A stretch of 64,000 nucleotides of DNA from Actinomadura luteofluorescens (GTDB lineage Bacteria > Actinomycetota > Actinomycetes > Streptosporangiales > Streptosporangiaceae). Below the pieces are notes generated by a model. It worked only from the letters and a program-made list of their open reading frames with translations, ran no database searches and was not told the DNA's origin. The position numbers and the translations under genes are program-made. The DNA lies in assembly GCF_013409365.1 (NCBI RefSeq), contig NZ_JACCBA010000001.1:930001-994000 (forward strand). The letters run 5' to 3'. This document shows positions 4,432 through 28,275 of the stretch, piece by piece; within the stretch, counting starts at the first letter, position 1; the number at the start of each line of letters is the position of its first letter.

Positions 4432-5349
4432 TCAGGGGCGCACGCGGATGACGGTCTTGCCCTTGCGCCGCATGGTCGGGTTGAGCACAGGGACGGCGTC
4501 GTCGAGGGTCGCGACGGTTCCGATGTGCGTGCGAAGGCGCCCGTCCCGCACCCGGTCGACGATCTCCACCAGCTGGCTCGGAACGGACTCGACGACGAAG
4601 TCGACCGCGAGACCGTCGACAGGGCGGGTCTCAACGGGCCCGACCACCGACACCAGCGTTCCGCCGGGCCGGATGATGCCGGCTGAGCGCCTCTGGATTT
4701 CACCACCGATGACATCGAAGACCAGGTCGACCCCTCCGATGTCTTCGAGATCCCCCTCGTCGAGGGCGAAGAACTCGTTCGCGCCGAAGTCGAGCGCCGC
4801 CTGGCGGTCGGCCGCCCGCCCGGTACCGATGACGTAAGCGCCGAACTCCCTGGCGAGCTGCGTCACCATCGATCCGACCGCGCCGGCGGCGCCGTGCGCG
4901 AGGACGCTCTGCCCCGCCTGAAGACGACCATGCTGGAACAGGCCTTGCCATGCGGTCAGGCCGGAGATCGGCAGGCTCGCACCCACCGTGAAGTCGACGG
5001 CCCCGGGCAGCGGCGCGAGGTTGCGTGCTTCCACGGCCACGTACTCGGCGAGGGTTCCATCGCGGTGCCAGTCCGTGATCCCGAACACCCGCTGGCCCGG
5101 GGAGAGTCCCGTCGTGCCGTAGCCGAGGGAGGTGACGACTCCGGCGAACTCGTGGCCGATGATCGCCGGGGCTCGGTCGTGACCGGAGCGATCGACCCAT
5201 GTCGAGGGCCACTCCCACTCTGCCGGGACGAAGCCCGACGCATGGACTTCAACGACGACGTCGTTGATCGCCGGCGTCGGTTCAGGCCGCACCGCCAGCG
5301 TGATCCCGGCCGCTTCCGCGGCCTGATCGGTAGCCACGATCGCCTTCAT
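4432..5349 (-). CDS. quinone oxidoreductase-like NADP-dependent MDR protein
   Basis: A 305-residue medium-chain dehydrogenase/reductase. The N-terminal GroES-like domain contains the GHEFAGVV box (near residue 66) and the Rossmann domain contains HGAAGAVGSMVTQLAREFG, typical of zinc-free quinone or enone reductases (zeta-crystallin/QOR type). The structural-zinc cysteine cluster of alcohol dehydrogenases is absent. GGAGG lies a few bases before the ATG. The gene stands alone on the - strand, and a perfect 12-bp palindrome lies upstream. Likely role: NADPH-dependent reduction of quinones or alpha,beta-unsaturated carbonyls, possibly detoxification beside aromatic catabolism. Confidence 0.85.
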   Translation of the reverse strand: MKAIVATDQAAEAAGITLAVRPEPTPAINDVVVEVHASGFVPAEWEWPSTWVDRSGHDRAPAIIGHEFAGVVTSLGYGTTGLSPGQRVFGITDWHRDGTLAEYVAVEARNLAPLPGAVDFTVGASLPISGLTAWQGLFQHGRLQAGQSVLAHGAAGAVGSMVTQLAREFGAYVIGTGRAADRQAALDFGANEFFALDEGDLEDIGGVDLVFDVIGGEIQRRSAGIIRPGGTLVSVVGPVETRPVDGLAVDFVVESVPSQLVEIVDRVRDGRLRTHIGTVATLDDAVPVLNPTMRRKGKTVIRVRP

Positions 5350-10246: not shown

Positions 10247-11191
10247 ATGGAACCCCACGGTGTTCTCGTCGTCGGCAGCATCACCGCGGACGTGACCGCG
10301 TTCAGCGCACGGTTCCCGCGGCGCGGTGAGACCGTGCTCGGCGACGACTTCACCCTCGTGCTCGGCGGGAAGGGCGCGAACCAGGCGGTCGCGTCCGCCC
10401 GCGCCGGTGCACGGACCTGGCTCGCCGGGTGCGTCGGCCGCGACCCGTTCCGCGAGATCGTCCTGGACGGCCTGCGGTCGTACGGCGTCGGACTGGACGA
10501 GGTCCGGACCGGGGACGGCCGCACCGGCGTCGCACACATCCGCGTGGACGCGTCCGGGGAGAACGACATCGTCATCACCCCTCTGGCGAACGCCGACCTC
10601 AGCCCGGCCATGGTCGACGCGAGCATCGGCGCGACCGCCGGGAAGGTCGGCGTCCTGCTCCTGCAACTCGAAGTCCCCGCGGCGACGACCTGCCACGCGG
10701 CCAAGGCGGGCAGGGCGGCCGGGCTGACGGTCGTCCTCGACCCGGCCCCCGCCCAGGCGCTCCCGGACGACGTGTGGCCGCACATCGACCTGGTCACGCC
10801 GAACGAGAGCGAGGCGACGGAGCTGACCGGTGTGGAGGTCACCGACCCGGCGTCCGCCGAGCGGGCCGGACGATGGTTCCTCGACCGCGGCGTCGGCCAC
10901 GCGCTGATCACGCTGGGCGCGGGAGGAGCCGTCTCCGTCACCCGCGAAGGCGCCCGGCACTTCACCGCCTACCAGGTCACCGCCGTGGACACCACCGCGG
11001 CCGGGGACGCCTTCACCGGCTCGCTGGGTGCGGCACTCGCGGCCGGCGACGCCATGGAACGTGCCATCCGGCGGGGCATGGCCGCCGGGGCGCTGGCGAC
11101 GACCCGACCCGGCGCGAGCCCGTCCCTGCCAGATCGGGACGAGGTGGACGCACTGATGTCCGGCAACACCCTGGAAGGAGCCGCCCGATGA
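10247..11191 (+). CDS. rbsK: PfkB-family sugar kinase, ribokinase-like
   Basis: A 314-residue PfkB kinase. GGKGANQAVASARAG near residue 43 is the first signature, and DTTAAGDAFTGSLGAAL near the C-terminus holds the catalytic Asp (GD) and anion hole. An AGGAGG-like ribosome site precedes the ATG. The gene lies between the aldehyde dehydrogenases and rbsD in one operon. Ribokinase would phosphorylate D-ribose at O5. Because deoC is in the same operon, 2-deoxyribose is an equally plausible substrate. Confidence 0.88.
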   Translation: MEPHGVLVVGSITADVTAFSARFPRRGETVLGDDFTLVLGGKGANQAVASARAGARTWLAGCVGRDPFREIVLDGLRSYGVGLDEVRTGDGRTGVAHIRVDASGENDIVITPLANADLSPAMVDASIGATAGKVGVLLLQLEVPAATTCHAAKAGRAAGLTVVLDPAPAQALPDDVWPHIDLVTPNESEATELTGVEVTDPASAERAGRWFLDRGVGHALITLGAGGAVSVTREGARHFTAYQVTAVDTTAAGDAFTGSLGAALAAGDAMERAIRRGMAAGALATTRPGASPSLPDRDEVDALMSGNTLEGAAR

Positions 11192-11598: not shown

Positions 11599-13092
11599 AT
11601 GCGGATGCAACTGGTCGACGTCCACAAGTCGTTCGGGGAGAACCACGTGCTGCGGGGCGTCGGCCTCGCGGTCGAGCCGGGCGAGGTCGTCGCGCTGTGC
11701 GGCGAGAACGGCGCCGGCAAGTCCACCCTGACGCGGGTGATCTCCGGCGCGCACCAGCCGGACGGTGGCACGGTCCTCGTCGACGGCCGCGCCACGGTCC
11801 TGAAGGACCCGCAGGCCGCGATGACGCTCGGGATCGAGGTCATCTACCAGGAGTTCCAGCAGAACCTGTTCCCGAACCTGTCCGTCGCCGAGAACATGCA
11901 CATCCTCGACCGGGAGGGCCGGTTCGGGCGGCTGCTGGTGTCGCGCCGCCGGATGGCGGAGGCCGCCGTGTCCGCCCTGAAGGATCTCGGCCTGGACATC
12001 GACGTGCGGCGGCCGGTCGGCGAGCTCGGCGCCGCCGAGCGGCAGATGGTCGAGATCGCCAAGGCGATGACGCACAAGCCTCGGCTGCTGATCCTGGACG
12101 AGCCGACCGCGGCGCTGGACGAGCGGGAGTCGGAGCGGCTGTTCGAGCAGATCCGGCGGCTGCGCAAGGCCGGCGTCACGATCCTCTACATCAGCCACCG
12201 GCTGGACGAGGTGTTCGAGCTGTCCGACCGGATCGTCGTTCTCCGCGACGGCCGCGTCACCCTGGACGAGCCCACCGGGACGCTCTCCCCCGCCCAGGTC
12301 GTCACCGCGATGGTCGGCGACACCGTGGACGATTTCTACCCGAAGGAGCACAACACCACGGACCGGGTCGTCCTGCGGGTCCGGGGCGCGTCGGGCGGCG
12401 ACGCGTTCCACGACATCGACCTGGACGTCCGGGCGGGCGAGGTGCTCGGCATCGGCGGTGTCGTCGGCTGCGGCCGCGGCGAGTTGCTCCGCGCGCTGTT
12501 CGGCCTGCACCCGCTCACGTCCGGGACGGTGACCGTGGACGGCGAGCCGGTCAGGGCGCGCGGCCCGAGGCAGGCGATCTCCGGGCGCATCGCCTATGTC
12601 ACCCCGGACCGGTCCGGTGAGGGTCTCGCCATGCAGCAGTCCGTCGAGGCGAACGTGTCGCTGCCGTCCCTCGGCCGCTTCACGAAGGCCGACGTCGTCC
12701 TGCGCGGCCGGGAGCGCGCGGAGACCGGGAAGGTGATGGCGGACCTGCGGGTCCGCGCGGCGTCGCCGTCCATCGCGGCCGGGTCGCTGTCGGGCGGCAA
12801 CCAGCAGAAGGCGCTGTTCGCCAAGTGGGTGATGGCCGGGCCCCGGGTGCTGCTGATGGACGAGCCGACGCGCGGCGTCGACGTCGGCGCCAAGACCGAG
12901 ATCTACCGGATCATCAACGGCCTCACCGCGGACGGCGTCGCCGTCGTGCTGGTCAGTTCCGACCTGCCCGAGCTCGTCGCCATGTCCGACCGCGTCCTCG
13001 TGATGCGCGAGGGACGCACCGTCTCCGAGCTCACCGGCGACGACGTCAACGAACAGAACATCCTCGAGCACGCACTGGTAGGTGCCCCATGA
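11599..13092 (+). CDS. rbsA: sugar ABC transporter ATPase (two ABC domains)
   Basis: A 497-residue RbsA-type ATPase with two fused nucleotide-binding domains. The first has Walker A GENGAGKST (Lys41), a signature-like segment before MVEIAKAM, and Walker B LLILDEPTAALDE. The second has a degenerate Walker A (GVVGCGRGELL), as usual in this family, then SGGNQQK and LLMDEPTRGVDVGAK. It would energise import through the membrane protein encoded next. Its TGA overlaps the permease ATG by four bases. Confidence 0.93.
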   Translation: MRMQLVDVHKSFGENHVLRGVGLAVEPGEVVALCGENGAGKSTLTRVISGAHQPDGGTVLVDGRATVLKDPQAAMTLGIEVIYQEFQQNLFPNLSVAENMHILDREGRFGRLLVSRRRMAEAAVSALKDLGLDIDVRRPVGELGAAERQMVEIAKAMTHKPRLLILDEPTAALDERESERLFEQIRRLRKAGVTILYISHRLDEVFELSDRIVVLRDGRVTLDEPTGTLSPAQVVTAMVGDTVDDFYPKEHNTTDRVVLRVRGASGGDAFHDIDLDVRAGEVLGIGGVVGCGRGELLRALFGLHPLTSGTVTVDGEPVRARGPRQAISGRIAYVTPDRSGEGLAMQQSVEANVSLPSLGRFTKADVVLRGRERAETGKVMADLRVRAASPSIAAGSLSGGNQQKALFAKWVMAGPRVLLMDEPTRGVDVGAKTEIYRIINGLTADGVAVVLVSSDLPELVAMSDRVLVMREGRTVSELTGDDVNEQNILEHALVGAP

Positions 13093-14138
13093 CCTCCACC
13101 GTCACGAGCCTCGCGTCCCCGTCGCGGCTCTCCTCGGCGGCCGCCGCCGCGCGCCGGCTGCGCGCGGTCTGGATGCTGCTGCTGGTCGGGATCATCCTGA
13201 CCATCGCCTCACCGGTCTTCCTGACGCACAACAACCTGATGAACGTCGGGCTGGCCACGTCCGTCGCGGCGCTGCTCGCGGTCGGCCAGTCCTATGTGAT
13301 CATCCTGGCGGAGATCGACCTGTCGGTCGGCGCGGCGCTCGGCTTCACCGCCGTCGTCACCGCCCAGACGCTCCGCGACCACGGTCTCGTCGCCGGGGTC
13401 GGCGCGGGCGTGGCGACGGGCGCCGCGATCGGGCTGGTGAACGGGCTGCTCGTCACCAAGACACGGATGCCGTCGTTCATCGCGACACTGGCCACCATGT
13501 CGGTGCTGTCGGGTCTCAGCCTGCAGCTCACCAAGGGCAACCCGGTCGCCGTCACCGACTACGACTTCCAGGGCATCGGGCAGAGCCGGATCGCCGGCGT
13601 GCCCGTCCCCGTCGTGATCATGCTGGTGGTGTTCGCGGTGTTCGGGTACCTGCTCGCGCGGACCCGGTTCGGCCGGTACGTCTACGCCACCGGCGACAAC
13701 ACCGAGGCGGCCCGGCTGTCGGGCGTCCGCACCGACCGGGTGAAGATCCTCGCGTTCGTGATCAGCGGCGTGCTGGCGGCGCTCGCCGGCTTCATCCTCA
13801 CCGCCCGGCTGTCCACCGCCGAGCCCACCGCCGGCACCGGCCTGGAACTGGAGGCCATCGCCGCCGTCATCATCGGCGGAACGAGCCTCGCCGGCGGCCG
13901 CGGCACGCTTCTCGGCACCCTCGTCGGCGCGCTCGTCCTCGGCGTCATCGACAACGGGATGAACCTGCTGGACGTCTCGCCGTTCCTGCAGAACGTCGTG
14001 AAGGGCCTGGTCATCCTGCTGGCCGTGTTCCTGGACCGCAACATCGACGTGCTGCGCTCCCTCATCCCGAAACGTACGGACAAGACCACACAAGGCGGAC
14101 CGTCTCATCGCAGCGGCGCCGCCGCCAAGACCCCCTGA
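13089..14138 (+). CDS. rbsC: sugar ABC transporter permease
   Basis: A 349-residue hydrophobic protein of the RbsC/BPD-transp-2 family. Repeated hydrophobic segments begin at WMLLLVGIILTIA, and the family-typical EIDLSVGA and GGTSLAGGRGTL segments are present. The C-terminus, RSLIPKRTDKTTQ and beyond, is a polar cytosolic tail. It should form the membrane channel with the upstream ATPase and the downstream lipoprotein. Confidence 0.92.
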   Translation: MTSTVTSLASPSRLSSAAAAARRLRAVWMLLLVGIILTIASPVFLTHNNLMNVGLATSVAALLAVGQSYVIILAEIDLSVGAALGFTAVVTAQTLRDHGLVAGVGAGVATGAAIGLVNGLLVTKTRMPSFIATLATMSVLSGLSLQLTKGNPVAVTDYDFQGIGQSRIAGVPVPVVIMLVVFAVFGYLLARTRFGRYVYATGDNTEAARLSGVRTDRVKILAFVISGVLAALAGFILTARLSTAEPTAGTGLELEAIAAVIIGGTSLAGGRGTLLGTLVGALVLGVIDNGMNLLDVSPFLQNVVKGLVILLAVFLDRNIDVLRSLIPKRTDKTTQGGPSHRSGAAAKTP

Positions 14139-14175
14139 TCGACTCCCACCCCGACCCCGCAAAAAGGAGATTCCC

Positions 14176-15186
14176 ATGCGCGTGGCCAGAACCACCCGCG
14201 CCGTGATCGCCGTGACGGCCGCGGCCGCGCTCGCCCTGACCGGGTGCAGCCGCGCCGGCGAGGACGCCGGCGCCTCCACCGGCAAGGCGTCCGGAAAGAA
14301 GGACGCGACGATCATCATGAGCACGCTCAACAACCCGTTCTTCGTCAGCGTCAAGAACGGCGCGCAGGCGCAGGCGGCCGAGCTCGGCATCAAGCTGAAC
14401 GTGCAGAACGCCAACAACAGCGACGCCGCCGCGCTCAACCAGGCGACGACGGCCATCTCCAAGCAGACCGGCATCCTCATCATCGACCCGGTCAGCACCC
14501 AGTCGGCGACGTCGTCGGTGACGCAGGCGAACGGCGCGAACATCCCGGTGATGGCGTTCGACCGCAAGCCGTCCGGCGGCAAGCTCGCCACATTCGTCGG
14601 CTACGACGCCGTCCAGGCCGGGCGCAACGCCGCCAAGTCGCTCGCCGAGGCCGTCGGCGAGAAGGGCAAGGTCGTGGAGATCCAGGGCCTGCTCGGCACG
14701 AACGTCGCGCAGGACCGGAGCAAGGGCTTCAACGAGGAGATCGCCAAGCACAAGGGCATCACGGTCGTCGCCAAGCAGGCCGCCGACTTCGACCGCGCCA
14801 AGGCGCTGAACGTGATGACGAACGTGCTGCAGGCCAACCCGGGCATCAACGGCGTGTACGCCGCGAACGACGAGATGGCCATGGGTGTCTTGTCGGCACT
14901 GAAGGCCGGCAACCTGTCCAAGAAGGTGAAGCTCGTCGGCAACGATGGCATTTCCGACGCGCTGGCCGCGGTCGCGGCGGGCGACATGTACTCGACGAAC
15001 GCCGAGTCGCCGTTCGCGCTGGGCCAGAAGGTCATGACGCTCGCCGCCGACGTCCTCGCCGGCAAGAAGGTCGCGGCCGACGAGACCCTGCAGGGCAGGC
15101 TCGTCACGAAGGGCGGCGCCAAGGAGTACGCCGACTACCTGGTCGGGCTCGGCGACGCCGCAGACGTCCCCCCGTCCCTGAAGTAG
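14176..15186 (+). CDS. rbsB: sugar ABC transporter substrate-binding lipoprotein
   Basis: A 336-residue periplasmic-binding-protein-like lipoprotein. The signal peptide ends in the lipobox LTGC (Cys24). The mature domain starts with TIIMSTLNNPFFVSVKNG, the usual RbsB opening, and includes GVYAANDEMAMG. AAAAAGGAGA precedes the ATG. It is the last gene of the operon and is followed by a strong hairpin. It delivers the sugar to the permease; ribose or deoxyribose is the likely ligand. Confidence 0.92.
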   Translation: MRVARTTRAVIAVTAAAALALTGCSRAGEDAGASTGKASGKKDATIIMSTLNNPFFVSVKNGAQAQAAELGIKLNVQNANNSDAAALNQATTAISKQTGILIIDPVSTQSATSSVTQANGANIPVMAFDRKPSGGKLATFVGYDAVQAGRNAAKSLAEAVGEKGKVVEIQGLLGTNVAQDRSKGFNEEIAKHKGITVVAKQAADFDRAKALNVMTNVLQANPGINGVYAANDEMAMGVLSALKAGNLSKKVKLVGNDGISDALAAVAAGDMYSTNAESPFALGQKVMTLAADVLAGKKVAADETLQGRLVTKGGAKEYADYLVGLGDAADVPPSLK

Positions 15187-15427: not shown

Positions 15428-16627
15428 TCAGCGGAACGGCGTCCTCGCCGTTTCGTTCAGCCGGACGTCCGGGTCGGCGGCCCGGTCGGCGGACAGGGGA
15501 ACCCGGCCGGCGATGAGGCGCCGCGCGTCCCTCGTGGTGCGCGGGTCGTCGATGGAGAGCGCGGCACGCAACCGCGGCCCCTGGAACCACAGGGCCGCCC
15601 ATGGGCCCCGACCGGTGGGGTCCCCACGCAGGACGAACGTGTCCGCCGGACGGTGATGGCCCACGTACTGGATCCGGTGCCCAAGCTGCTCCGACCAGAA
15701 GTAGGGCACCGGGTCGTAGGGCTCGCCGAGACCGAGGAGATTGCGGGCGGCGGTCCGGCCGGATGCCGCGGCGTGGTCCCAGTGCTCGACGCGGAGCCGG
15801 TCACCGAACAAGCTGGAGGGCCAGCGGACGGCGTCCCCCGCGGCGTAGACGGAGCCCGGGCCGGCGCGCAGTGTCGCGTCGGCCTCGACGGCGCCGTCAG
15901 GAGCCACCGGAACGCCGCTGCCGTGCAGCCAGCCGGTGGCCGGGCGTGCGCCGACGCCCATGACGACGAGATCGGCGTCGACGCGCCCGCCGTCCGCCAG
16001 GCGCACGCCGCGTTCGTCCACCCCGTCAACCGGGGCGCCCAAGCGCAGGTCGATCCCCCGGTCGGCGTACCAGGGCACGAAGTGTTCCGCGAGCGGGGCG
16101 GGCATCGCTCGCGCGAGCGGGGCGGACGCGGCGTCGATCACGGTGACCTCGAGGTTCAGCGCGGCGGCGCGGGTGGCGACCTCGTTGCCGATCCAGCCCG
16201 CGCCGACGACCGCCACCGAGGAGGCGGTGCGCAGAGCTTCGCGAAGACGCAGCGCGTCGAAGCCGGTGCGCAGTTCGTGGACGCGGGGTGACGGATCGGC
16301 GAGCCTGATGGGGGAACTGCCCGTCGCGATGACGAGCCCGTCGAAGGAGTAGGTGCCGGTCGTGCTTTCAACGGCGTCGGGGAAGAGCCGAAGGGCGCGG
16401 GAACCGGTGCGCACCTCGATGTCGTGAGCTGTGAGCAGCGTGGTGTCGTCGACCGTCCCAGCGAGCAGTTCCTTCGACAGCGGTGGCCGGTCGTAGGGCG
16501 GGCACGGCTCGTCGGAGACCAGGATCAGCTCACCGTCGTAGCCCTCGGCTCGAAGAGTGGTCGCGGCGGTGTGCCCGGCGAGGCCGCCGCCCACGATGAC
16601 GATCCGGCGGGGGACGTGCCGGTTCAC
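15428..16627 (-). CDS. FAD/NAD(P)H-dependent ferredoxin reductase of the ring-hydroxylating system
   Basis: A 399-residue pyridine nucleotide-disulphide-type reductase, as in toluene/biphenyl dioxygenase systems. FAD site GGGLAGHTAA near residue 11, NAD(P)H site GAGWIGNEVA near residue 150, and the C-terminal FAD contact YAAGDAVRWPS are visible. The GTG at 16627 overlaps the LLM stop (GTGA). It would move electrons from NAD(P)H to the Rieske ferredoxin encoded in the same operon. It is the last gene of the operon. Confidence 0.9.
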   Translation of the reverse strand: MNRHVPRRIVIVGGGLAGHTAATTLRAEGYDGELILVSDEPCPPYDRPPLSKELLAGTVDDTTLLTAHDIEVRTGSRALRLFPDAVESTTGTYSFDGLVIATGSSPIRLADPSPRVHELRTGFDALRLREALRTASSVAVVGAGWIGNEVATRAAALNLEVTVIDAASAPLARAMPAPLAEHFVPWYADRGIDLRLGAPVDGVDERGVRLADGGRVDADLVVMGVGARPATGWLHGSGVPVAPDGAVEADATLRAGPGSVYAAGDAVRWPSSLFGDRLRVEHWDHAAASGRTAARNLLGLGEPYDPVPYFWSEQLGHRIQYVGHHRPADTFVLRGDPTGRGPWAALWFQGPRLRAALSIDDPRTTRDARRLIAGRVPLSADRAADPDVRLNETARTPFR

Positions 16628-17595
16628 GGCCCGGTCCAGGCGGCCAGAGTGCGCAGGGTGTGCTCGCCTGCCGGGTCCTCGTCGGTGCAGCACGGCAGGA
16701 CGGCGATCTCGTCGACGGCGTAGGACGCGAGCCGTGCCGCGACCTCCTCCGGCCCGCCGAGCGCCGCCACCGCGTGGACCAGTTCGTCCGGGACGGCGGC
16801 GAGCAGCTCGGACGGATGGGGGCGGCTGCGCGCCAAGGCGACCACCTCGCCGAAGCCGGCCTCCTCGAACATCTGCGCGTATCCGGGCGCGGCAAGGTAG
16901 CCGACGACGGCCCGGCGGACCTGCTCACGTGCCTGCACGCCACCGTCCACGGCCACCGGCACCCATGCCGCCACCGGTGGTGCGCTGGTGCCGGCCGCAT
17001 CGGACTCGGATCGGAGCCGTGCCGCGAGCCGTCCCGCCGAGTCCGCCGTGACCAGGCTGACCACCATGCGGTCGGCGTGCCTCGCGGCGGCGCGGACCGC
17101 CGCCGCGCCGAACGCCGCGATCGTGATGGGAGTGCGGGGTGCCGGCAGCCGCAGCCGGTAGTCCTGGACGCGAACGGTCCTGCCTTCGAAGCCGGCCCGC
17201 TCTCCGGCGAGCAGGTGCCGCAGGACCTCGGCGGACTCGGCGAGCGCGGTGGGAGGATCCCGCCGTTCGCGGCCGTGCCAGCGCTCCACGACGTGCGGGC
17301 TGGAGGTGCCGATCGCGACGCCGGCGACGCGACCGGTCAGATCGGCGAGTGACGCCACCGCCATCGCGATCATCATCGGGTCGCGTACCGCGACCGGCAG
17401 CGGCCCGGGCGTCAGCATGATCGAGGACGTCCGGGCGGCCACCGCCACCGCGAGGGCGAACGCGTCGTACGTGGCCATCTCGCCGATCCACAGTTCCGGA
17501 AAGCGGAGTTCGTCGGCGAGGGCGGCCGTTTCCAGGGCTTCGCGTGCGGGCCTGTCCTGCCACAGCCCGAGCGATACCGTCAGCTTCGCGTTCAT
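16624..17595 (-). CDS. LLM-class flavin/F420-dependent oxidoreductase
   Basis: A 323-residue luciferase-like TIM-barrel protein. LTVSLGLWQD opens the first strand, and LRFPELWIGEMATYD and SIMLTPGPLPVAVRDP follow in the usual order. ATG at 17595 overlaps the SDR stop by four bases. It is embedded in the ring-hydroxylating operon, which already has its own complete electron chain, so it is an extra redox step rather than part of the dioxygenase. Cofactor (FMN or F420) and substrate are unresolved. Confidence 0.8.
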   Translation of the reverse strand: MNAKLTVSLGLWQDRPAREALETAALADELRFPELWIGEMATYDAFALAVAVAARTSSIMLTPGPLPVAVRDPMMIAMAVASLADLTGRVAGVAIGTSSPHVVERWHGRERRDPPTALAESAEVLRHLLAGERAGFEGRTVRVQDYRLRLPAPRTPITIAAFGAAAVRAAARHADRMVVSLVTADSAGRLAARLRSESDAAGTSAPPVAAWVPVAVDGGVQAREQVRRAVVGYLAAPGYAQMFEEAGFGEVVALARSRPHPSELLAAVPDELVHAVAALGGPEEVAARLASYAVDEIAVLPCCTDEDPAGEHTLRTLAAWTGP

Positions 17596-18410
17596 CGGGC
17601 GCCTTTCGGTCGACGTGCCGCGCCGCGGACTTCGAGCCCGCCGTCGCTCGGCAGGATGGCTCCCGTCATGAAGCGGGAGTCGCGTGGGTCGGCGAGCAGG
17701 ACGTACAGGCCGGCGTGGTCGGCGGGGTCGCTGACGAAGCCGAGCGGGATGTGCCGGTCGATCCCGTCCAGTTCCGCGTCCAGGCGCCGGTCGGCGGCGC
17801 CGAGGGCGGCCAGCCCGCCGAGTGCCGTCAGCGTCGCGCCTGGGGCGACACCGTTCACCCGGACGTCCGGGGCCAGTTCGTGGGCGAGCTGCCGGACCAG
17901 CCCGACCACCGCGTGCTTGGACGCGACGTACAGTGCCCCACCGCCGCCCGCGTACAGGCCGCTGGAGGAGATCGTGAAGATGAGGCAACCCCCGCTGTCG
18001 CGCAGAGCCGGAAGTGCCGCACTTGCGCCGAGCATGTAGCCGAGAACGTTCGTCTCGAACAGCTCGGCGAAACCCTCCACGACGCGGTTCTCGCCGAGCT
18101 CCTCGAAGCGGGTCGAGTAGTCGTACACGCCCGCGTTGGCGACGTAGGCGTCCAATCGGCCGTGGACGTCGAGTGTGCGGGTCACCGACGCGGCGTGGGC
18201 TTCGGGCGCCCTGACGTCCCCGATCTCGACCGTGACCCGGTCACCATGATCGCGGGCGAGCGCCGCGGCCCGGCCGGAGTCGCGCTCGAGAACGCCCACC
18301 CGCGCTCCCTCCGCGACGTAGCGGTCGACGATGGCCCGGCCGATGCCGCTTCCGCCGCCGGTGACCAGCGCGACCTGGCCGTCAAGCCGTCCTGTACCTG
18401 GTGCCGTCAT
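17592..18410 (-). CDS. SDR, probable cis-dihydrodiol dehydrogenase (BphB-like)
   Basis: A 272-residue classical short-chain dehydrogenase: TGGGSGIGRAI binds NAD+, and the catalytic Ser and YVASK lie in the segment around SSSGLYAGGGGALYVASKHA. Long inserts such as TRTLDVHGRLDAYVANAGVYDYS resemble BphB/HcaB-type enzymes, which oxidise cis-dihydrodiols to catechols. Position between the dioxygenase beta subunit and the ferredoxin reductase fits that step exactly. Its stop overlaps the LLM start. Confidence 0.85.
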   Translation of the reverse strand: MTAPGTGRLDGQVALVTGGGSGIGRAIVDRYVAEGARVGVLERDSGRAAALARDHGDRVTVEIGDVRAPEAHAASVTRTLDVHGRLDAYVANAGVYDYSTRFEELGENRVVEGFAELFETNVLGYMLGASAALPALRDSGGCLIFTISSSGLYAGGGGALYVASKHAVVGLVRQLAHELAPDVRVNGVAPGATLTALGGLAALGAADRRLDAELDGIDRHIPLGFVSDPADHAGLYVLLADPRDSRFMTGAILPSDGGLEVRGAARRPKGAR

Positions 18411-18423
18411 GTCGTGCCGGTTC

Positions 18424-18930
18424 CTAGAAGAAGGTGTTGATGTTCTTGGCAGGGAGAACCGCGTGCCGCAGGAGGACGAGCCGGCGGGCGATCCGCAGCT
18501 CGCCCGAGACCCGGCGCAGGATGTCCTCGCGCCGCCCGTACAGGGTCGCGGCGTCGATGTCGCCCTGGCCCCGGTAGTTGACGATCACCGAGCGGACGAG
18601 CAGCTCGCCCGGCGTCTCCGCCCGCTCCACCTCGATGTTGGACACGACGTGCAGGTGCCGGGTCGCCGGGTCCTCCGCCCACGCGGTGGGCGCGGTGAAG
18701 CGGACGACACGACGGCGCAGGTCCTCGAGAGTGTCGTCGAAGTAGGCCATACGGGACGGCGCGTAGGGGCCGTTCGGATCGGACCGGCCGCGGTTCTCCA
18801 CGCCGGGGACCCAGTAGTGCGCGTCCTCGGTGAAGAGCCCGAGCCATTCGGTGTACCGCTCCTCGTCGAGCAACCGCGCCTCGTATGCGAGGAAGGTCTG
18901 GACCTCCCAGTACGTCTCCATCGTGGTCAT
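18424..18930 (-). CDS. ring-hydroxylating dioxygenase small (beta) subunit
   Basis: A 168-residue SnoaL/NTF2-like beta subunit. Family marks are [18 protein letters not shown] at the N-terminus, the [10 protein letters not shown] segment and [10 protein letters not shown] near the C-terminus. The ATG at 18930 overlaps the alpha-subunit stop (ATGA). It should form an alpha3beta3 hexamer with the upstream product; the beta subunit is structural and may influence substrate range. Confidence 0.92.
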
Positions 18931-20225
18931 GACGCCGCCTCGTCCCATGTACGGGCGCGAAGGAGTTGCGACCAACGCCGGTAGAACGCCCGCTGGTTGG
19001 CGTCGTTGATCTGGCCGCGGTGCACGTTGCCGGGCAGTTCGGGGTGCTCGATCGCCGTACCGGACCCAAGCCCGTAGTAGAGCCGCTGCTTCCGCGTCAC
19101 CACACCCGCGTTGGACCGGGTGGCCAGCTCCCAGTTCTCGCCGTCGTCCATCTCGAAGACGCCGGAGGGAGAGAAGGTCATCATCGCTCCCTTGCGCCAA
19201 GCGTCCTTCACATCCTGGGGGGCGTTCCGGTTCACCAGGACCCAGGTGTGCAGCTCGGTGCGATGTGGCCCCTTCGGCTGCCATGTCCGGAAGGTGTTCT
19301 GGCCGGGCAGGAACGAGAAGTTCGGGAAGACGTTCACCGAGCTGATCGAGCCGACCATCCGCGCCCGCAGGGCGCCGAGTCGCTCGGCGAAGCGCTTCTC
19401 ATGGTCGCGCAGGTAGGCCATGACCCGTGGGTCACCGAGGGTGGCGGCGTTCCCGACGCCGTCCAGGTTGAACTCCCAGCAGTGGCCGTTCGCGTTGACG
19501 TGGTAACTCTCGGCATCCTCCGCGCCCAGGTCGGGGACGCCGCGGCCGAGCATGGCCTCCGCGCCGGACGCGTGCGTCCAGCCGGCGTGCAGCGCGTCAC
19601 CGGCGAAGTTCTCCGCCGCGATCTTCCAGTTGCAGCCGAGGACGGACTTGATCGAGCCGCCCGCGAACTCCGTGCCGCCCTCGTCGTTGTCAAGGATCAC
19701 GTCGAGATAGAAGGCGAAGTCGCCGAGGTAGTCCCGCAGCGGCGGCGCGCCGGGGTCGAACGTGGCGAACACCAGTCCCTTGTAGGTGTCGAGTTGAGCC
19801 ACGGGGGTGAGCCCGAGCCGGGAGCGGTCGAAGCCCGGTTCCCGGCCGAAGGCCGCGGACTCGTGCACGCCGGTGAGCCCGCCGTCGAGGCCGAACGACC
19901 AGCCGTGGTAGTTGCACACGAACCCGCGGGCCGTCCCCACTTCGGCGGTGCACACGCGATTGCCCCTGTGGGGACAGCTGTTGAGGTAGGCGCCGATGGA
20001 GCCGTCCCGCCGCCGGACGACGAGCACGTTGTCCTCGCCCATCCAGGTGGTGATGAACGCCCCGGGCTTCGGCAGCTGGGACTCGTGGGCGACGAACAGC
20101 CAGCACCGGGCGAAGATCCGCTCCAGCTCCAGTTCGTAGACGTCCCGGTCCCAGAAGACGCGGCGATCGAGCCAGCCGTCGTCCAGCCCGGACAGTGCGA
20201 GCAGTTCGTCGTTCATGCCGCTCAT
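18927..20225 (-). CDS. Rieske ring-hydroxylating dioxygenase large (alpha) subunit
   Basis: A 432-residue oxygenase subunit. The Rieske [2Fe-2S] cluster is bound by Cys84, His86, Cys104 and His107 (CPHRG and CNYHGW). The mononuclear iron site lies in the segment [17 protein letters not shown], with the bridging Asp and two His in the usual DxHxxxxH order. The start at 20225 is preferred over 20216 because GGAGG lies five bases upstream and the ATG overlaps the ferredoxin stop. It adds O2 to an aromatic ring to give a cis-dihydrodiol; the ring substrate cannot be told from sequence. Confidence 0.95.
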
Positions 20226-20569
20226 GCCGACCTCCGCGCGAGGAATGCGACGACCATGCCGTCCTCGACGACCGCCCTGTACACGGCAAGGGGTCTGGAC
20301 GCGGGGAAGCACAGGGCCTTGCCCGTCGCCAGGTCGAACTCCGCCCAGTGCACTGGGCAGACGACCCGGTCTGCCTCCAGATCGCCTTCGCTCAGCGACG
20401 CCTCGGCATGGGTGCAGGTGTCGTCGGTGACGTGGATCGTCCCGTTCACATTCGAGACCAGCAGCGGCCCCGCGTCGCCGGTGACGACGCGCAGCATCCG
20501 CCCAGGAGGCACGTCATCCGCCGCGCACAGGACCGTACGGCCCCCGGTGCTCCTGAGGTCAGCGGACAT
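20222..20569 (-). CDS. Rieske ferredoxin of the ring-hydroxylating system
   Basis: A 115-residue soluble Rieske protein. The cluster ligands are Cys52/His54 (TCTHAEASL) and Cys71/His74 ([10 protein letters not shown]). The ATG at 20569 overlaps the end of the LigB gene by 11 bases, and its stop overlaps the alpha-subunit ATG. It carries electrons from the FAD reductase to the oxygenase. Gene order ferredoxin-alpha-beta differs from the classic alpha-beta-ferredoxin order of bph operons. Confidence 0.93.
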
Positions 20570-21401
20570 CGGCGGCCTCCAGCGGGAGCAGCTCGGCGAA
20601 GCCGAGGCCGGTGATCCACTCCGGGACGGCCTCGTAGGCGATGACGTCCCCCCGGCAGGGCCCCACGGCCGACATCGCCGCGACGAACGTGCGCACTTCG
20701 AGTGCGCCGTTGCCGGCCTCCGCGAGCGTCTCGGCGTCATCCAGGCCGGCCAGTGCGGCGGTGTCGCCGGCGGCGACGCGGTCGAGCACCATCCGGTCGA
20801 AACCGGAGTCGATCCGGCCCATCTCGGCGGTTCCGACCCAGTGGCTGATACCGCCGCTGCCGATGACGGCGACGCGCTCGTCCTCTCCGGCGGCCTCGAC
20901 CGCCTCCCGGATCGCCTCTCCGGCGCGGACGGCGCGGGCGAGCGGCAGCAGTGGCTCGACACCGCAGGCGAGGTAGACGGGGATCACCGGCAGCCCGAGT
21001 GGCTCGGCGACCAGATGGTAGGGGATGACCACGGAGTGGTCCGCGGTGAACGTCGGAGCGACCGCCCAGTCGACGCCGTGCCGGTGCCCGTGTCCGGCGA
21101 TGTGCCGGGCCAGCGGCGCGTTGTCCGGCAGCGGGCCGCGCGCCAGGCCGGGCAGCCGCTCGACCGGACCGTCCAGGTCCCCGGTCGCGATGAGCAACTG
21201 GGGCAGGCAGCCGGGACCGAACAGGATGTAGTGGTCGGTGCCGATGATCACCACTGTGGTCGGGTCGAGCGCGGCGAGCCGCCGGGAGATCTCCCGGTAC
21301 GCCTCGTGCACACGGTCGCGCACCGGCGCGTCCGGTGCGTCCGGATGCGTGAACATCATCGGGTCGTGGGGCAGCAGGAAGCCGCCGACGATGCTGCCCA
21401 T
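20559..21401 (-). CDS. LigB-type (class III) extradiol dioxygenase catalytic subunit
   Basis: A 280-residue LigB-fold protein. Candidate iron ligands and acid-base residues are His12 (LLPHDPMMF), His57 (GTDHYIL) and His122/His129 (TADHSVVIPYHLV). The C-terminal IAYEAVPEWITGLGFA resembles the end of the operon-1 enzyme (YAAVPQWLTGMGVA), suggesting the two are distant paralogues. It lies two bases after a LigA-like gene, so the enzyme is probably a two-subunit protocatechuate 4,5-dioxygenase-type complex. It would open the catechol made by the Rieske enzyme and SDR. Confidence 0.88.
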   Translation of the reverse strand: MGSIVGGFLLPHDPMMFTHPDAPDAPVRDRVHEAYREISRRLAALDPTTVVIIGTDHYILFGPGCLPQLLIATGDLDGPVERLPGLARGPLPDNAPLARHIAGHGHRHGVDWAVAPTFTADHSVVIPYHLVAEPLGLPVIPVYLACGVEPLLPLARAVRAGEAIREAVEAAGEDERVAVIGSGGISHWVGTAEMGRIDSGFDRMVLDRVAAGDTAALAGLDDAETLAEAGNGALEVRTFVAAMSAVGPCRGDVIAYEAVPEWITGLGFAELLPLEAADVR

Positions 21402-21403
21402 GG

Positions 21404-21715
21404 TCAGTCTCCCTCTGAGTCGCCGGACGCGGGGACGGGTCGCCGAGCGGGTGTTTCGCCGCGCAGCCTGGCCAGATAGCCGGGTGCACCGCGCTCCCCG
21501 TCGGGCGCGAGCATCAGCCAGAACCCCCACACGAGCATCGGGTTGGCGGCCAGCGAGGCGAGGCCGCGAACGTCCCGGCCGGTCAGCATCGCCGCCTCCT
21601 CCCCGGTCAGCCGGTAACGATCGGCGAAACGGGCGGGAGATTCCTTGAAGGCCTCCCGGGCGCGCCGGTCGACGTTGAGGTCGTAGAGCGCCTTCTCGAC
21701 GCCGTGCAGGCTCAT
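21404..21715 (-). CDS. LigA-like small subunit of class III extradiol dioxygenase
   Basis: A 103-residue helical protein of the LigA family. SLHGVEKALYDLNVDRRARE and the later YRLTGEEAAMLTGRDVRGL are typical of protocatechuate 4,5-dioxygenase alpha subunits. ATG at 21715 overlaps the hydrolase stop by four bases, and the LigB gene begins two bases after its own stop, so the subunits should be made in step. Confidence 0.85.
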   Translation of the reverse strand: MSLHGVEKALYDLNVDRRAREAFKESPARFADRYRLTGEEAAMLTGRDVRGLASLAANPMLVWGFWLMLAPDGERGAPGYLARLRGETPARRPVPASGDSEGD

Positions 21716-22554
21716 GTCTGCCTCCCGGCGAAGTCGCGGACGAGGCCGGTGAACGCGGCGGGCCGTTCGAGTTGCACCCAGTGGCCGCATTGCCCGAACA
21801 CGTGAAGCTCGGAGTCCGGGATCGAGCGGGCCAGGCGCCAGCCGAGCTCCACGGGGATGACCTCGTCCTCGCGCCCGTGGACGATGAGCGAGGGCTTGCC
21901 GATCGTGCGGAGCCTGTCCTCGGGGACGCCTCTGACCGGGGTGTCTCCGGGGCCGGGCTCCGGGATCAGCTTCCGGAAGGCCGCCTGGGCGCCCGGGGCG
22001 GCGCTGGCCTCGTACCTCGCCCGCACCATCTCCTCGGTGACGAGGCCCTTGTCATACGGGAAGAGCCGCAGGATGCGCCGCATCTCGTCCGGATCGGGTT
22101 CGTAGTGCCAGCCCGCCCGGAGCCCCTCGGTCATCGTGAACGTCCCGGCGGGCGTGCCGAGCAGTACGAGGCCGTCCACGCGGGACGGGTCCCGCAGCGT
22201 GGCGGCCAGCGCCAGACCGCCGCCGAAGCTGTTCCCCACCAGAAGGGCGGACGGGATGTCCAGGGCGTCGAGGAACTCGAAGAGCTGCCGCGTCCAGAGC
22301 TTGATCCCGTACTCGGTCCCCTCCTGGAAAGAGGTCCTGCCGAATCCGGCGATGTCGGGCGCGAGCACCCGGTGCTCGGCAGCGAGTGCGGGCAGCACAC
22401 CGGACCAGTTCGACCAGGCCGAAACGCCCGGGCCGGATCCGTGCAGCAGCACGATGGGCCGCCCGTGCCCGGCCTCGTGGTACGCGGTCTCGTGGCCGGC
22501 CGCGAGGACCCGGCGCACCTGGGCGCCCTGGTCGAAGAGTCGGTCTCCCACCAC
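21712..22554 (-). CDS. alpha/beta hydrolase, probable meta-cleavage product hydrolase
   Basis: About 280 residues, BphD/MhpC-like. LLHGSGPGVSAWSNW is the oxyanion region, the nucleophile Ser lies in VGNSFGGGLAL, the Asp in HGREDEVIPV and the His in GQCGHWVQLERP. The frame has an ATG at 22566, but no ribosome site precedes it, whereas GGGAGG lies inside its first codons and correctly precedes GTG codons at 22554 and 22551. I prefer 22554. This is the first gene of the ring-hydroxylating operon and should cleave the ring-fission product of LigAB. Confidence 0.88.
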   Translation of the reverse strand: MVGDRLFDQGAQVRRVLAAGHETAYHEAGHGRPIVLLHGSGPGVSAWSNWSGVLPALAAEHRVLAPDIAGFGRTSFQEGTEYGIKLWTRQLFEFLDALDIPSALLVGNSFGGGLALAATLRDPSRVDGLVLLGTPAGTFTMTEGLRAGWHYEPDPDEMRRILRLFPYDKGLVTEEMVRARYEASAAPGAQAAFRKLIPEPGPGDTPVRGVPEDRLRTIGKPSLIVHGREDEVIPVELGWRLARSIPDSELHVFGQCGHWVQLERPAAFTGLVRDFAGRQT

Positions 22555-22573
22555 GACACCTCCCATTCATTCG

Positions 22574-22587
22574 ATCGGTCAATCGAT
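22574..22587 (-). promoter_or_regulatory. TetR-type operator, site 1 (hydrolase side)
   Basis: On the - strand the bases read ATCGATTGACCGAT. The same pattern, ATCGATNGRCCGAT, occurs at 22633-22646 and 23380-23393. Site 1 lies just upstream of the - strand operon, where a bound repressor would block its transcription. Confidence 0.65.
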
Positions 22588-22631
22588 TTATTTTGGGGAC
22601 TGTAGCAGCCGGCCCACCGGCCCGCAAAGGC

Positions 22632-22664
22632 GATCGATCGGCCGATCGATCATTCGGCTAGCAT
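22632..22664 (+). promoter_or_regulatory. TetR-type operator site 2 and promoter of the TetR gene
   Basis: GATCGATCGGCCGATCGATC (22632-22651) is a perfect 20-bp palindrome and contains ATCGATCGGCCGAT. A TAGCAT -10 hexamer follows at 22659-22664, six bases before the GTG at 22671, so the transcript probably starts at the start codon. The palindrome would overlap the -35 region, predicting autorepression. Confidence 0.7.
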
Positions 22665-22670
22665 CGGAGC

Positions 22671-23321
22671 GTGATTCCAGAGGACACCGCACGACGCGAC
22701 GAGACCCCGGCGCGCAGGCGTCCGGGGCGCAAGCCCGGCAGCCGGAACGACGACTGGGAGGACAAGCGGCGCCGGATCCTGGACGTCGCCGCCGACGTCT
22801 TCTTCGTCCGCGGCTACGACCGGGGCACCACGAAGGAGATCGCCGAACGCGCGGGGATGAGCCAGCCGACGATCTACCACTACGTCGGCTCCAAGGAAGT
22901 CCTCATGTCGGAGATCGCCCGCCAGGTCGACCGCGACTTCACAAGAGCGCTGGACGGGGCCCTCGCCGCCCCCGCCGACCCGGCGACGCAACTGCGTCGC
23001 GTCATCGACGCCTTCGTCCGCTCCCTCGCTCTCAACCAGCGAACGTTCGCCGTGTACTGGAAGGAGTTCCGCTCGCTGCCGGCGGACGTCGGCCGCGAGG
23101 TCAGCGGACACGAGCGGGACTTCGTCGTCCGGGTCGAGGAGGTCGTCTCCCGCGCACAGGAGCAGGGCGTCCTGCCGGCCGAGCACCCGACCCGCGTCGT
23201 CAGCGAGGGGATCCTCGGAATGATGAGCTGGATGCACTGGTGGTACAAGCCGGACGAGTTCAACGCCGAACAGGTCTCCGCCGCGTTCTGCGACCTGATC
23301 GGCCTGCCGGCCGAGGGCTGA
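22671..23321 (+). CDS. TetR-family repressor of the ring-hydroxylating/CoA-ligase regulon
   Basis: A 216-residue TetR regulator. A basic N-terminal arm (ARRRPGRKPGSR) precedes the helix-turn-helix, TTKEIAERAGMSQPTIYHYV (about residues 63-82). The ligand domain contains MHWWYKPDEFNAEQV, an arrangement seen in TetR proteins that sense acyl-CoA esters, such as KstR2-like regulators; that likeness is from memory. The start GTG is probably leaderless. Palindromes sharing one 14-base core flank it on both sides, in front of the hydrolase operon and of the acyl-CoA ligase gene. A CoA thioester made by that ligase is a natural inducer candidate. Confidence 0.88.
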   Translation: MIPEDTARRDETPARRRPGRKPGSRNDDWEDKRRRILDVAADVFFVRGYDRGTTKEIAERAGMSQPTIYHYVGSKEVLMSEIARQVDRDFTRALDGALAAPADPATQLRRVIDAFVRSLALNQRTFAVYWKEFRSLPADVGREVSGHERDFVVRVEEVVSRAQEQGVLPAEHPTRVVSEGILGMMSWMHWWYKPDEFNAEQVSAAFCDLIGLPAEG

Positions 23322-23369
23322 GCGGCGACTCCTCCTCCCATCCACGCCCGGCCGGTCCGAGCTGGACTA

Positions 23370-23398
23370 TTGACGTTCTATCGATAGACCGATAGAAA
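23370..23398 (+). promoter_or_regulatory. promoter with embedded TetR operator, site 3, before acyl-CoA ligase
   Basis: TTGACG (23370-23375) and TAGAAA (23393-23398) are spaced by 17 bases. The spacer is almost filled by a 22-base dyad at 23376-23397 with perfect 8-bp arms and the shared core ATCGATAGACCGAT (23380-23393). A repressor bound here would occlude RNA polymerase directly. Confidence 0.7.
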
Positions 23399-23427: not shown

Positions 23428-25026
23428 ATGCCTGCCCTGGATGGAACCGTCCCGCGGCCACGCGGGCGCCGGCCGGCCACGATGGTCGCGGCGCTGCGCG
23501 AAGCGGTCGCCCAGGCCCCCGCCCGCGCGGCCGTGACGTGCGGCGCCGGGACGCTGACCTACGCCGAGTACGGCAGGGCGGTCGATGGCCTGGCCGCACG
23601 CCTCGCCGAGGCGGGTGCGCGGGGTGCGACGATCGCGATCGCCATGCCCAACAGCCCCCGGATGGCGGTGGCGATCTTCGCGGTGTGGACGGCGGGCGGG
23701 AGCATCGCCTGCCTCAACCCCGGCTACACCCCGGGGGAACTGGTCCCGCTGCTGAAGGGGGCCTCACCCGTGTTCGTCCTCACCGACGCGGAGGCGGCCG
23801 CGACCGGTCCGCTCGCGGCCGCCGCCGAACTGGGCCTGGACGTCCTGCCGGTCGCCGACGCCGATCTCCGGCCGACCGGAACCGCGGACGCGGCGGCCCC
23901 GGCGGAGGACCCGGCCCCCGACGACATGGCCGCTCTTCTGTTCACCGGCGGCACGACCGGTCTGCCGAAGGGCGTTGAGTACACCCACGAAACGCTGCTG
24001 ACGACGGTCGAGGGCGCCGAACTGTGCTGGCCGACGCGTCCGGACGAGGAGATCTGGCTCAACGTGGCGCCGATGTTCCACATCTGGGGCCTGGCGATCG
24101 GTTTCCTGCACGCCGTCTACCGCCGCGGCGGGCTCGTGATGGTGCCGCGCTTCGTCCCCGCGACGGTCGCCGCGGAACTGGAGCGGCATCGCGTGACGAT
24201 CTTCAGCGGCGGACCGGCGGCCATCTACGGCGGCGTCCTCGCGGCCCCCGAACTCGCCGGCGCCGATCTGTCGGCGCTGCGCCTCTGTCAGGGCGGCGGC
24301 TCGGCCATCCCCGCCGACCTGCAGGAACGCTGGCAGGCGGTCACCGGGCTACCGATCTACGAGGCGTACGGGATGACGGAACTGGCACCGATCACCTACA
24401 ACCCGGTCGGGCGACCACCGCGCCCGGGCTCGGTCGGGATCCCCTCCCCCCTCGTCGGGGTGGAGGTCGCCGACCTCCGAACCGGCACGCCCGTCGCCCC
24501 CGGGGAGGTGGGCGAGATCAGGGTCAAGGCGGCTCACATGCTGCGCCACTACCGCAGCCTGGACGGAGGGATCATCCCCGCGCACCGGGACGGCTGGTTC
24601 CACACCGGTGACGTCGGACGCTTCGACGATGACGGCTACCTGCGCATCGTCGACCGCGCGAAAGACATGATCATTGTGGGCGGCTTCAACGTCTACCCCC
24701 GCGAGATCGACGACACGCTGCTCGCACATCCCGCGGTGGTCGAGTCCGCGACCATCGGCGTACCGGACGAGCGCAGGGGCGAGCGGCCCGTCACGTTCGT
24801 GTCCGCGGCACCGGACACGCCGCTCGACCTCCAGGAACTCGAACGCCACTGCGCCGAGCGCCTCACCGCGTACAAGCGGCCCTCCCGGATCCTCATCCTT
24901 CCCGAACTGCCGCGGACGCCCGCCAACAAGATCGACCGGATCACGCTGCGCAAACACCCCGTGCTCGCGTCCTCCGAGCCGGGGAACGCACCGGAAGGCG
25001 CCGGCAAGGTCACCGAACCCGGTTGA
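23428..25026 (+). CDS. AMP-forming acyl/aryl-CoA ligase
   Basis: A 532-residue ANL-superfamily enzyme. The phosphate-binding loop is LFTGGTTGLPKGVEYTH (around residues 171-187), the adenine motif YGMTELAPITYN follows, then HTGDVGRFDDDGYLRIVDR, and the C-terminal catalytic Lys in TPANKIDRIT. It resembles 4-coumarate-CoA ligase and medium-chain or aryl acyl-CoA ligases. GAGAGGAG precedes the ATG. It is the only + strand catabolic gene of this regulon and probably activates the substrate acid or the acid released by ring cleavage. Confidence 0.9.
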   Translation: MPALDGTVPRPRGRRPATMVAALREAVAQAPARAAVTCGAGTLTYAEYGRAVDGLAARLAEAGARGATIAIAMPNSPRMAVAIFAVWTAGGSIACLNPGYTPGELVPLLKGASPVFVLTDAEAAATGPLAAAAELGLDVLPVADADLRPTGTADAAAPAEDPAPDDMAALLFTGGTTGLPKGVEYTHETLLTTVEGAELCWPTRPDEEIWLNVAPMFHIWGLAIGFLHAVYRRGGLVMVPRFVPATVAAELERHRVTIFSGGPAAIYGGVLAAPELAGADLSALRLCQGGGSAIPADLQERWQAVTGLPIYEAYGMTELAPITYNPVGRPPRPGSVGIPSPLVGVEVADLRTGTPVAPGEVGEIRVKAAHMLRHYRSLDGGIIPAHRDGWFHTGDVGRFDDDGYLRIVDRAKDMIIVGGFNVYPREIDDTLLAHPAVVESATIGVPDERRGERPVTFVSAAPDTPLDLQELERHCAERLTAYKRPSRILILPELPRTPANKIDRITLRKHPVLASSEPGNAPEGAGKVTEPG

Positions 25027-27789: not shown

Positions 27790-28275
27790 TCAGCCGGATT
27801 CGGCATCTGTGCTTGCCGATGGGCCGGCCAGGACGCGTGCCAGCAGGTCACGGAGGTGCTGCTGGTCGGGCCCTGGGAGTTCGAAGAAGGTCCGAGCCAG
27901 CGCGTGGGCGCTGGAGCGCAACTGCCGGCGTTTGCGCTCGCCGGCTTCGGTGAGTACCACGTGCTTGACGCGGCGGTCGCCCGGAGCGGGACGGCGGGTC
28001 ACCATGCCGCGGCGTTCCAGGCCGTCGACGATGCCGGTGACGTTCGACGGCTCGCATGACAGCCAGTCGGCCAACTCACGCATCGGGGCGGGGCCGGACA
28101 GGTTCGTCAGGACGAGCGCTTGGGCCGGGGGCAGGCCGAGCTCCGCCGCGGTGGCGTTGAACTGCGCGCGCAGCCGCCCGGTGACCTCGAAGACCAGGCC
28201 GCTCAGCTCGGCCACCACCGCATCCGTGTCGGTACCGGCACCGATGTCGGGGGCGGGGACGGGGTCGGAGTCCAT
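27790..28275 (-). CDS. MarR-family transcriptional regulator
   Basis: A 161-residue MarR protein. The winged helix reads MRELADWLSCEPSNVTGIVD, followed by the wing RRPAPGDRRVKHVVLTEAG, both typical. It is divergent from the DUF6069/nitroreductase pair at 28394-29289, with 118 bases between. MarR proteins usually repress such divergent neighbours and respond to small phenolic or redox-active molecules. The Met start at 28275 gives an N-terminus rich in Asp and Pro before the domain; a later start is possible. Confidence 0.88.
   Translation of the reverse strand: MDSDPVPAPDIGAGTDTDAVVAELSGLVFEVTGRLRAQFNATAAELGLPPAQALVLTNLSGPAPMRELADWLSCEPSNVTGIVDGLERRGMVTRRPAPGDRRVKHVVLTEAGERKRRQLRSSAHALARTFFELPGPDQQHLRDLLARVLAGPSASTDAESG

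Follow-up and report, generated by a model that had tools for sequence, protein, structure and literature searches.

A predicted three-promoter TetR regulon at an aromatic-acid degradation cluster of Actinomadura luteofluorescens

In Actinomadura luteofluorescens, the gene of a TetR-family regulator stands between a set of ring-hydroxylation genes and the gene of an acyl-CoA ligase, and the same 14-base sequence, ATCGATNGRCCGAT, recurs at the promoters of all three, which raises the question of whether one repressor controls them through a common operator and, if so, which signal releases it. We analyzed a stretch of 64,000 nucleotides around this locus, here called the window, to which all positions refer. 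Exact matches to ATCGATNGRCCGAT occur at the three places reported in the initial annotation, 22574-22587 on the minus strand and 22633-22646 and 23380-23393 on the plus strand, and an extra, overlapping reverse match (22637-22650, minus strand) is created by the palindrome at 22632-22651. That palindrome is perfect over 20 bp, as had been described for the second copy, and is the sole perfect palindrome of at least 18 bp in the window. Dinucleotide-shuffled versions of the window (n = 100) contained a mean of 0.00 matches, and in the whole genome (9,622,362 bp; 9.62 Mb) the window's four matches are the sole exact ones, with 0 for a reversed control pattern and an expectation for independent, identically distributed bases of 0.18 per genome and 0.001 per 64 kb; as the 14-mer was defined after the sites had been seen, these figures alone overstate the significance, and the matrix test on other loci described below is independent of them. 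With up to two mismatches the genome holds 264 matches (124 forward, 140 reverse) versus 35 for the control, so that a copy is informative only when exact or nearly so.

The regulator (22671..23321, plus strand; 216 aa), assigned by profile search and predicted structure, is followed on the same strand by an AMP-binding acyl-CoA ligase (23428..25026; 532 aa; profile search). The minus strand carries, in order: an HsaD/BphD-like alpha/beta hydrolase (21712..22566), whose start, judged by eye, is probably GTG at 22551 or 22554 and not ATG at 22566; a small LigA-like protein of about 103 codons (21404..21715); a LigB-type extradiol dioxygenase (20559..21404); a Rieske ferredoxin (20222..20590); the alpha (18927..20222) and beta (18424..18933) subunits of a ring-hydroxylating dioxygenase; a cis-dihydrodiol dehydrogenase of the SDR type (17592..18410); a luciferase-like F420-type oxidoreductase, above the cut-off for the Rv3093c subfamily (16624..17574); and a ferredoxin reductase (15428..16693), the last gene of the inferred operon. 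From the gene order, we assume that the minus-strand genes from about 22551 form one transcript. The LigA-like protein scores 23.8 bits with the Pfam LigA model, slightly under its cut-off of 25.3; because this gene, kept in the relatives examined, stands between the hydrolase and LigB, the latter is probably part of a two-subunit, LigAB-type extradiol dioxygenase. The F420-type oxidoreductase also adjoins dioxygenase genes in the related loci L005-L009 and L010, which are introduced below. Convergent with the end of the operon lies an ABC-transporter-like set (11599-15186, plus strand; ATPase, permease and lipoprotein-like binding protein, recognized by eye), at which the 22-mer scan described below finds no operator.

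Taken together, the cluster looks like a ring-hydroxylation and meta-cleavage route provided with a CoA-activation enzyme, for which a phenylpropionate-like acid is a reasonable guess at the substrate. Compared with hca (3-phenylpropionate/cinnamate dioxygenase), the alpha subunit is below the HcaE cut-off (369.9 vs 830), its nearest solved structures belonging to the biphenyl/cumene/cinnamate group, while the other subunits resemble hca models: the beta subunit is above one 3-phenylpropionate model cut-off (186.2 vs 145), the dihydrodiol dehydrogenase exceeds one cut-off (333.1 vs 330, NF004849) but not another (278 vs 450, NF042950), and the ferredoxin (90 vs 113) and reductase (227.7 vs 450) both fall short. 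With scores so mixed, two above and three below cut-off, any assignment of the substrate is tentative. The CoA ligase, the TetR regulator and the F420-type enzyme are additions relative to hca.

The regulator has an N-terminal TetR_N helix-turn-helix (PF00440, 56.4 bits; cut-off 24) and an all-helical TetR-type ligand domain and, at the sequence level, a palindromic operator at its own and at a neighboring promoter, as is characteristic of the family. Its predicted structure (pLDDT 91.4) has PfmR, AibR, KstR2, DarR, BkaR, FadR and MbdR among its nearest folds, several of which (AibR, KstR2, FadR, MbdR) are CoA-ester sensors, a likeness of fold that does not in itself reveal a ligand. The protein scores well below the cut-offs of the KstR equivalog (NF033703, 31.3 bits vs 280) and of Bacillus-type FadR (NF053878, 51.5 bits vs 200). 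Among 86 database hits, 67, which are 40-99% identical, stand clear of the remainder; the hits include Embleya homologues (P0009 and P0010) at 65-68% identity. A plasmid search with the protein matched 61 records, all below 60% identity, with 25.6-34.5% for 15 among the matches listed. No paper on this regulator or operator was recognized from the titles and abstract starts of the open-licence papers listed, and both seem to be unstudied so far.

At strict E-values, 7 of 341 family genomes, all from one genus, encode an ortholog, as do 2 of 394 and 2 of 396 genomes of a class and a phylum sample, each count including the own genome; carriers are thus few, and they are closely related. A scan of named genomes for the regulator gave six loci. 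Orthologs of at least 87% identity occur in Actinomadura sp. NBRC 104412 (locus L005, genome G007), A. pelletieri (L006, G692), A. spongiicola (L007, G028), A. syzygii (L008, G703) and A. chibensis (L009, G009). More distant homologues are encoded in G033 (51%), in G757 (55%), which belongs to another family, in G217 (42-43%), which shares only the phylum, and in Streptomyces coffeae (L010, 49%). The S. coffeae locus (L010:9001-10731) contains two to three tandem TetR segments related to the window protein (49, 54 and 35% identity), perhaps a fused double TetR protein like P0006 among the database hits.

What the regulator might recognize was approached by palindromic fitting on 16 promoter stretches, which describes the operator as a palindrome of 22-26 bp, about TTCNATCGRTCGAYCGATNGAA, with TTCgATCGaTCGAtCGATcGAA as the 22-bp palindromic consensus. 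The fitting prefers even widths, odd widths being worse than their even neighbors at each width from 10 to 26, and the 24- and 26-bp models outscore the 22-bp model somewhat, so the outer edge of the operator is not fixed. The shared 14-base core of the initial annotation is therefore present but understates the site, as it forms the inside of this longer palindrome. The 16 stretches were chosen around promoters with sites already seen, and the control for the fit is the held-out matrix test rather than shuffles. Three operators are predicted in the window: O1 (22570..22591), which holds the 14-mer at 22574-22587, lies directly downstream of the inferred dioxygenase operon start and has a second, overlapping register at 22566-22587; O2 (22632..22651), the perfect 20-bp palindrome, which covers the tetR -35 region and carries the 14-mer on both strands; and O3 (23376..23397), a 22-bp near-palindrome in the -35/-10 spacer of the ligase promoter, which holds the 14-mer at 23380-23393.

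The motif is specific on a genomic scale. Allowing for three mismatches or fewer, a search of the own genome with a degenerate 22-mer finds O3 and the two registers of O1 only, with 0 matches for the control, and misses O2 because the ends of O2 are more diverged; frequent occurrence at unrelated sites, which the initial annotation had named as the outcome that would speak against a regulon, is thus observed neither for this consensus nor for exact copies of ATCGATNGRCCGAT. A matrix built from 14 sites contains 26.7 bits over 22 positions. No further regulon member emerged in the own genome among the candidates scored (7 one-mismatch copies of the 14-mer among the matches listed and 5 near matches), the best two of which, at 18.2 and 17.9 bits, lie in a 390-codon open frame and in the gap between two reading frames that converge. 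Applied to the six further genomes of the genus that carry the regulator, the 22-mer detects the operon, ligase and reductase sites where they had been expected and recovers the tetR operator in two (G692 and G028), and one unexplained three-mismatch match appears in each of G009 and G007. It has no match in G757, although the matrix gives a site there at 23.8 bits, and one match in G217, about 5.4 kb from the TetR gene; of four genomes without an ortholog, two have none and G001 and G005 have one each. Since all these sites went into the 22-mer, the multi-genome scan tests specificity and not discovery.

The placement of the operators was then related to the promoters, with start sites taken as 7 bases after the -10 element and the hexamers of the operon and tetR promoters picked by eye. 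The ligase promoter (23370..23398, plus strand) consists of TTGACG (23370-23375) and TAGAAA (23393-23398) with a spacer of 17, as originally annotated. The 14-mer, however, does not fill that spacer as had been claimed: it takes up 13 of the 17 spacer bases and the first base of TAGAAA, and it is the 22-mer at 23376-23397 that spans the whole spacer plus five of the six -10 bases. This operator lies at -29 to -8 in both the window and G009. The dioxygenase operon promoter is placed at 22599..22627 on the minus strand (-35 TTGCGG, 22622-22627; -10 TACAGT, 22599-22604; spacer 17), and its operator, with the inferred start as +1, at +1 to +22 in the window, +2 to +23 in L006, +6 to +27 in L008 and, in the more distant loci, -7 to +14 in G033 and +10 to +31 in G757. 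For tetR, the putative -10 element TAGCAT (22659..22664, plus strand) keeps the same offset in the window, L006 and L008; the operator lies at -39 to -20 in the window and within two bases of that in the other two, and the inferred start coincides with the GTG start codon in all three, so the transcript is probably leaderless.

Three site geometries are apparently used: within the -35/-10 spacer (ligase), just past the inferred start (operon) and over the -35 element (tetR). These positions fit repression through a block of polymerase, and promoter occlusion is most likely the mode of repression. We consider it unlikely that the protein instead acts as an activator at one or more promoters, for example at the operon promoter via O2. 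The position of O2 just upstream of the inferred operon -35 is compatible with such a role, and some TetR-family proteins do activate (the NCBIfam model of FasR names an activator), but O3 between -35 and -10 and O1 past the start are placed as expected for a repressor. Calculated from the coordinates, the centers of O1 and O2 are about 61 bp apart in the window, with the operon promoter in between.

We compared the same regions in the relatives. Both operator regions are recognizable in all six aligned tetR/operon divergent regions (window and L005-L009), and the tetR -10 element is conserved too. The L005 tetR operator differs in sequence from that of the window and yet forms a perfect 22-bp palindrome; those of L006 and L007 are palindromes perfect over 20 bp, with the center moved by about 2 bp. 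The ligase promoter with its operator is present in 6/6 alignments, with TTGACGTTC, ATC, AT, GA and CGATAGAAAAAA invariant and single variable bases between them. Searched as a pattern, it occurs once each in 6 of 345 genomes of the order, namely the six with a TetR ortholog of at least 87% identity; as the pattern was derived from those six, the information lies in the 339 genomes without a match. In each of the seven searched genus genomes that carry the regulator, the ligase gene adjoins tetR or belongs to the regulon.

Sites also accompany genes that have changed place. The ligase and ferredoxin reductase genes of A. chibensis (G009) and A. syzygii (G703) stand side by side on a contig other than that of tetR; the relocated ligase promoter keeps the operator in its spacer, and the reductase has its own promoter, where the operator occupies +1 to +22 relative to the inferred start in either genome. 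In G033, the hydrolase, dioxygenase, reductase, ligase and tetR genes are all co-directional, and the 22-mer matches that genome only at the first promoter, in two overlapping registers.

For the held-out test, a palindromic matrix was built from the three window sites only and applied to ten other loci (173,387 bases), L005 being excluded as too close to the window; 25 loci around other TetR genes (88,911 bases) served as control and gave a maximum of 16.8 bits. Every match above 16.8 bits in the ten loci falls within a predicted promoter, except in L052, where nothing had been predicted, and the best matches lie in the promoters of orthologous genes. The L009 tetR operator, at 15.7 bits, is below the control maximum, and the matrix finds no site in S. 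coffeae (L010), where the best score is 12.2 bits.

Locus L052 belongs to G217, which is from another branch of the phylum and encodes a 43% homologue of the regulator. It has three site clusters of at least 16 bits, a number reached in none of 40 shuffles. The site at 4823 lies between listed reading frames; that at 10434 precedes an enoyl-CoA hydratase frame by 16 bp but, when an SDR frame is read at its longest, overlaps the initial codons of that frame; and that at 15011 immediately precedes a plus-strand frame but falls within a minus-strand one, possibly not a gene. The cluster encodes SDRs, an enoyl-CoA hydratase, an acyl-CoA dehydrogenase and an AMP-binding ligase, and a search of L052 for the dioxygenase, hydrolase and LigB genes of the window gave no match. 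Because the motif is kept in a cluster without dioxygenase genes, it seems to follow the regulator. The three L052 sites are also candidate operators of a second, unrelated regulon around CoA-ester enzymes.

These comparisons bear on two other explanations of the sites. The first is that they are chance repetitions of GATC/CGAT-rich DNA: the motif is made of 4-base repeats and was chosen after the sites had been seen, and two-mismatch copies are frequent, but the held-out matrix, the whole-genome 22-mer scan, the L052 shuffles and the conserved ligase promoter oppose chance, and we reject this explanation as extremely improbable. The second is that the sites belong to a different regulator and that the TetR gene is a bystander. 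Recognition of the sites by the TetR protein is predicted from sequence, and a MarR-like reading frame, noted by eye, is present at 27790-28275; the sites, however, adjoin TetR homologues of 43-55% identity in clusters that vary in gene content, and one of them, O2, is situated at the TetR gene, which makes a different regulator very unlikely. Conservation in relatives, the held-out matrix test, the sites that accompany relocated genes and the whole-genome specificity all support the single local TetR regulon of three promoters first suggested by the annotation, and we regard such a regulon, autoregulated and acting by repression, as likely.

Based on these observations, we propose the following circuit. 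The product of 22671-23321 would be an autoregulated TetR-family repressor, of which a dimer (perhaps two) would bind the 22-26-bp palindrome at the three promoters and block RNA polymerase at each: from O1 past the operon start, from O2 over the tetR -35 element and from O3 in the ligase spacer. When an aromatic acid enters, ligase made at a basal level would form a CoA ester, upon which the repressor would be freed; the ester could derive from the entering acid or from one that ring cleavage sets free, and the derepressed ligase would make more inducer.

The choice of a CoA ester as inducer, a preference that we hold with roughly even confidence, follows the logic of MbdR from Azoarcus sp. 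CIB, the closest that we found in print. According to the portion of the MbdR paper considered here (PMC4424350), this TetR repressor controls several promoters, among them its own, of a single aromatic pathway, together with an extra CoA ligase promoter, through operators over the -10, the -35 or the start site, and is released by 3-methylbenzoyl-CoA, a ligase-made CoA ester. The same portion gives its operator as ATACN10GTAT, as opposed to TTCNATCGRTCGAYCGATNGAA here, and its pathway as anaerobic, as opposed to the oxygenase pathway here (PMC4424350); MbdR matches the window's regulator in sequence at only 34.7 bits. AibR, PfmR and FadR, also of the TetR family, show at most 29% identity among the matches listed and serve other pathways. 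For KstR2, the TetR-family regulator of steroid catabolism in mycobacteria, the sequence match is 34.8 bits; its inducer is a CoA ester of an acid that remains once a ring has been cleaved, and its operator reportedly differs from the one described here. The operator in PMC6651687, in the part of that paper considered, is that of TTHA0973, a Thermus protein other than PfmR.

The same repressor and sites could also respond to a different ligand, such as the free aromatic acid, a dihydrodiol or catechol, or a ring-cleavage product, with the ligase as a mere pathway enzyme, and to this we give somewhat less than even weight. TetR-family ligands are diverse: QsdR of Rhodococcus erythropolis is, like the regulator here, a TetR repressor of a divergent catabolic operon with an acyl-CoA ligase gene, and yet, in the sections of its description drawn on here (PMC6262395), it responds to the homoserine lactone ring of its substrate, by which it is released, and serves quorum-signal degradation. 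Sensors of other than CoA esters, such as DarR, are also among the fold neighbors, and no ligase match is found within the 14 kb examined in G757. Circumstantial arguments for a CoA ester are the constant association of the ligase with the regulator in the genus (7/7 genomes searched), the setting of the G217 homologue among CoA-ester enzymes and the MbdR precedent. Ibuprofen pathways likewise start with a CoA ligase and a ring dioxygenase (PMC9195938); since, in the passages of that paper used here, ipfA expression in strain MPO218 is independent of ibuprofen and the regulators discussed are of the LysR and XylR/DmpR types (PMC9195938), these pathways are no direct model for the present cluster.

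Returning to the proposed repressor circuit, a more far-reaching form of it can be put forward only tentatively: an unstudied TetR subfamily would govern pathways that begin with CoA activation, through a 4-base-periodic operator with overlapping dimer registers (two each at O1 and O2), perhaps bound by a dimer of dimers; the operon promoter would be held between operators about 61 bp apart, and the ligase would make its own inducer in a switch-like positive loop.

The circuit would be of a familiar kind, with a binding site and a regulator that are predicted here, and it breaks no general rule of TetR regulation. For the uncharacterized aromatic-acid pathway of Actinomadura, the analysis provides one candidate regulator, together with a concrete operator at three promoters, and the motif may be used to find further regulons of this TetR subfamily. 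If the inducer is an aryl-CoA, the repressor and its promoters would constitute a sensor for CoA-activated aromatic acids in actinomycetes.
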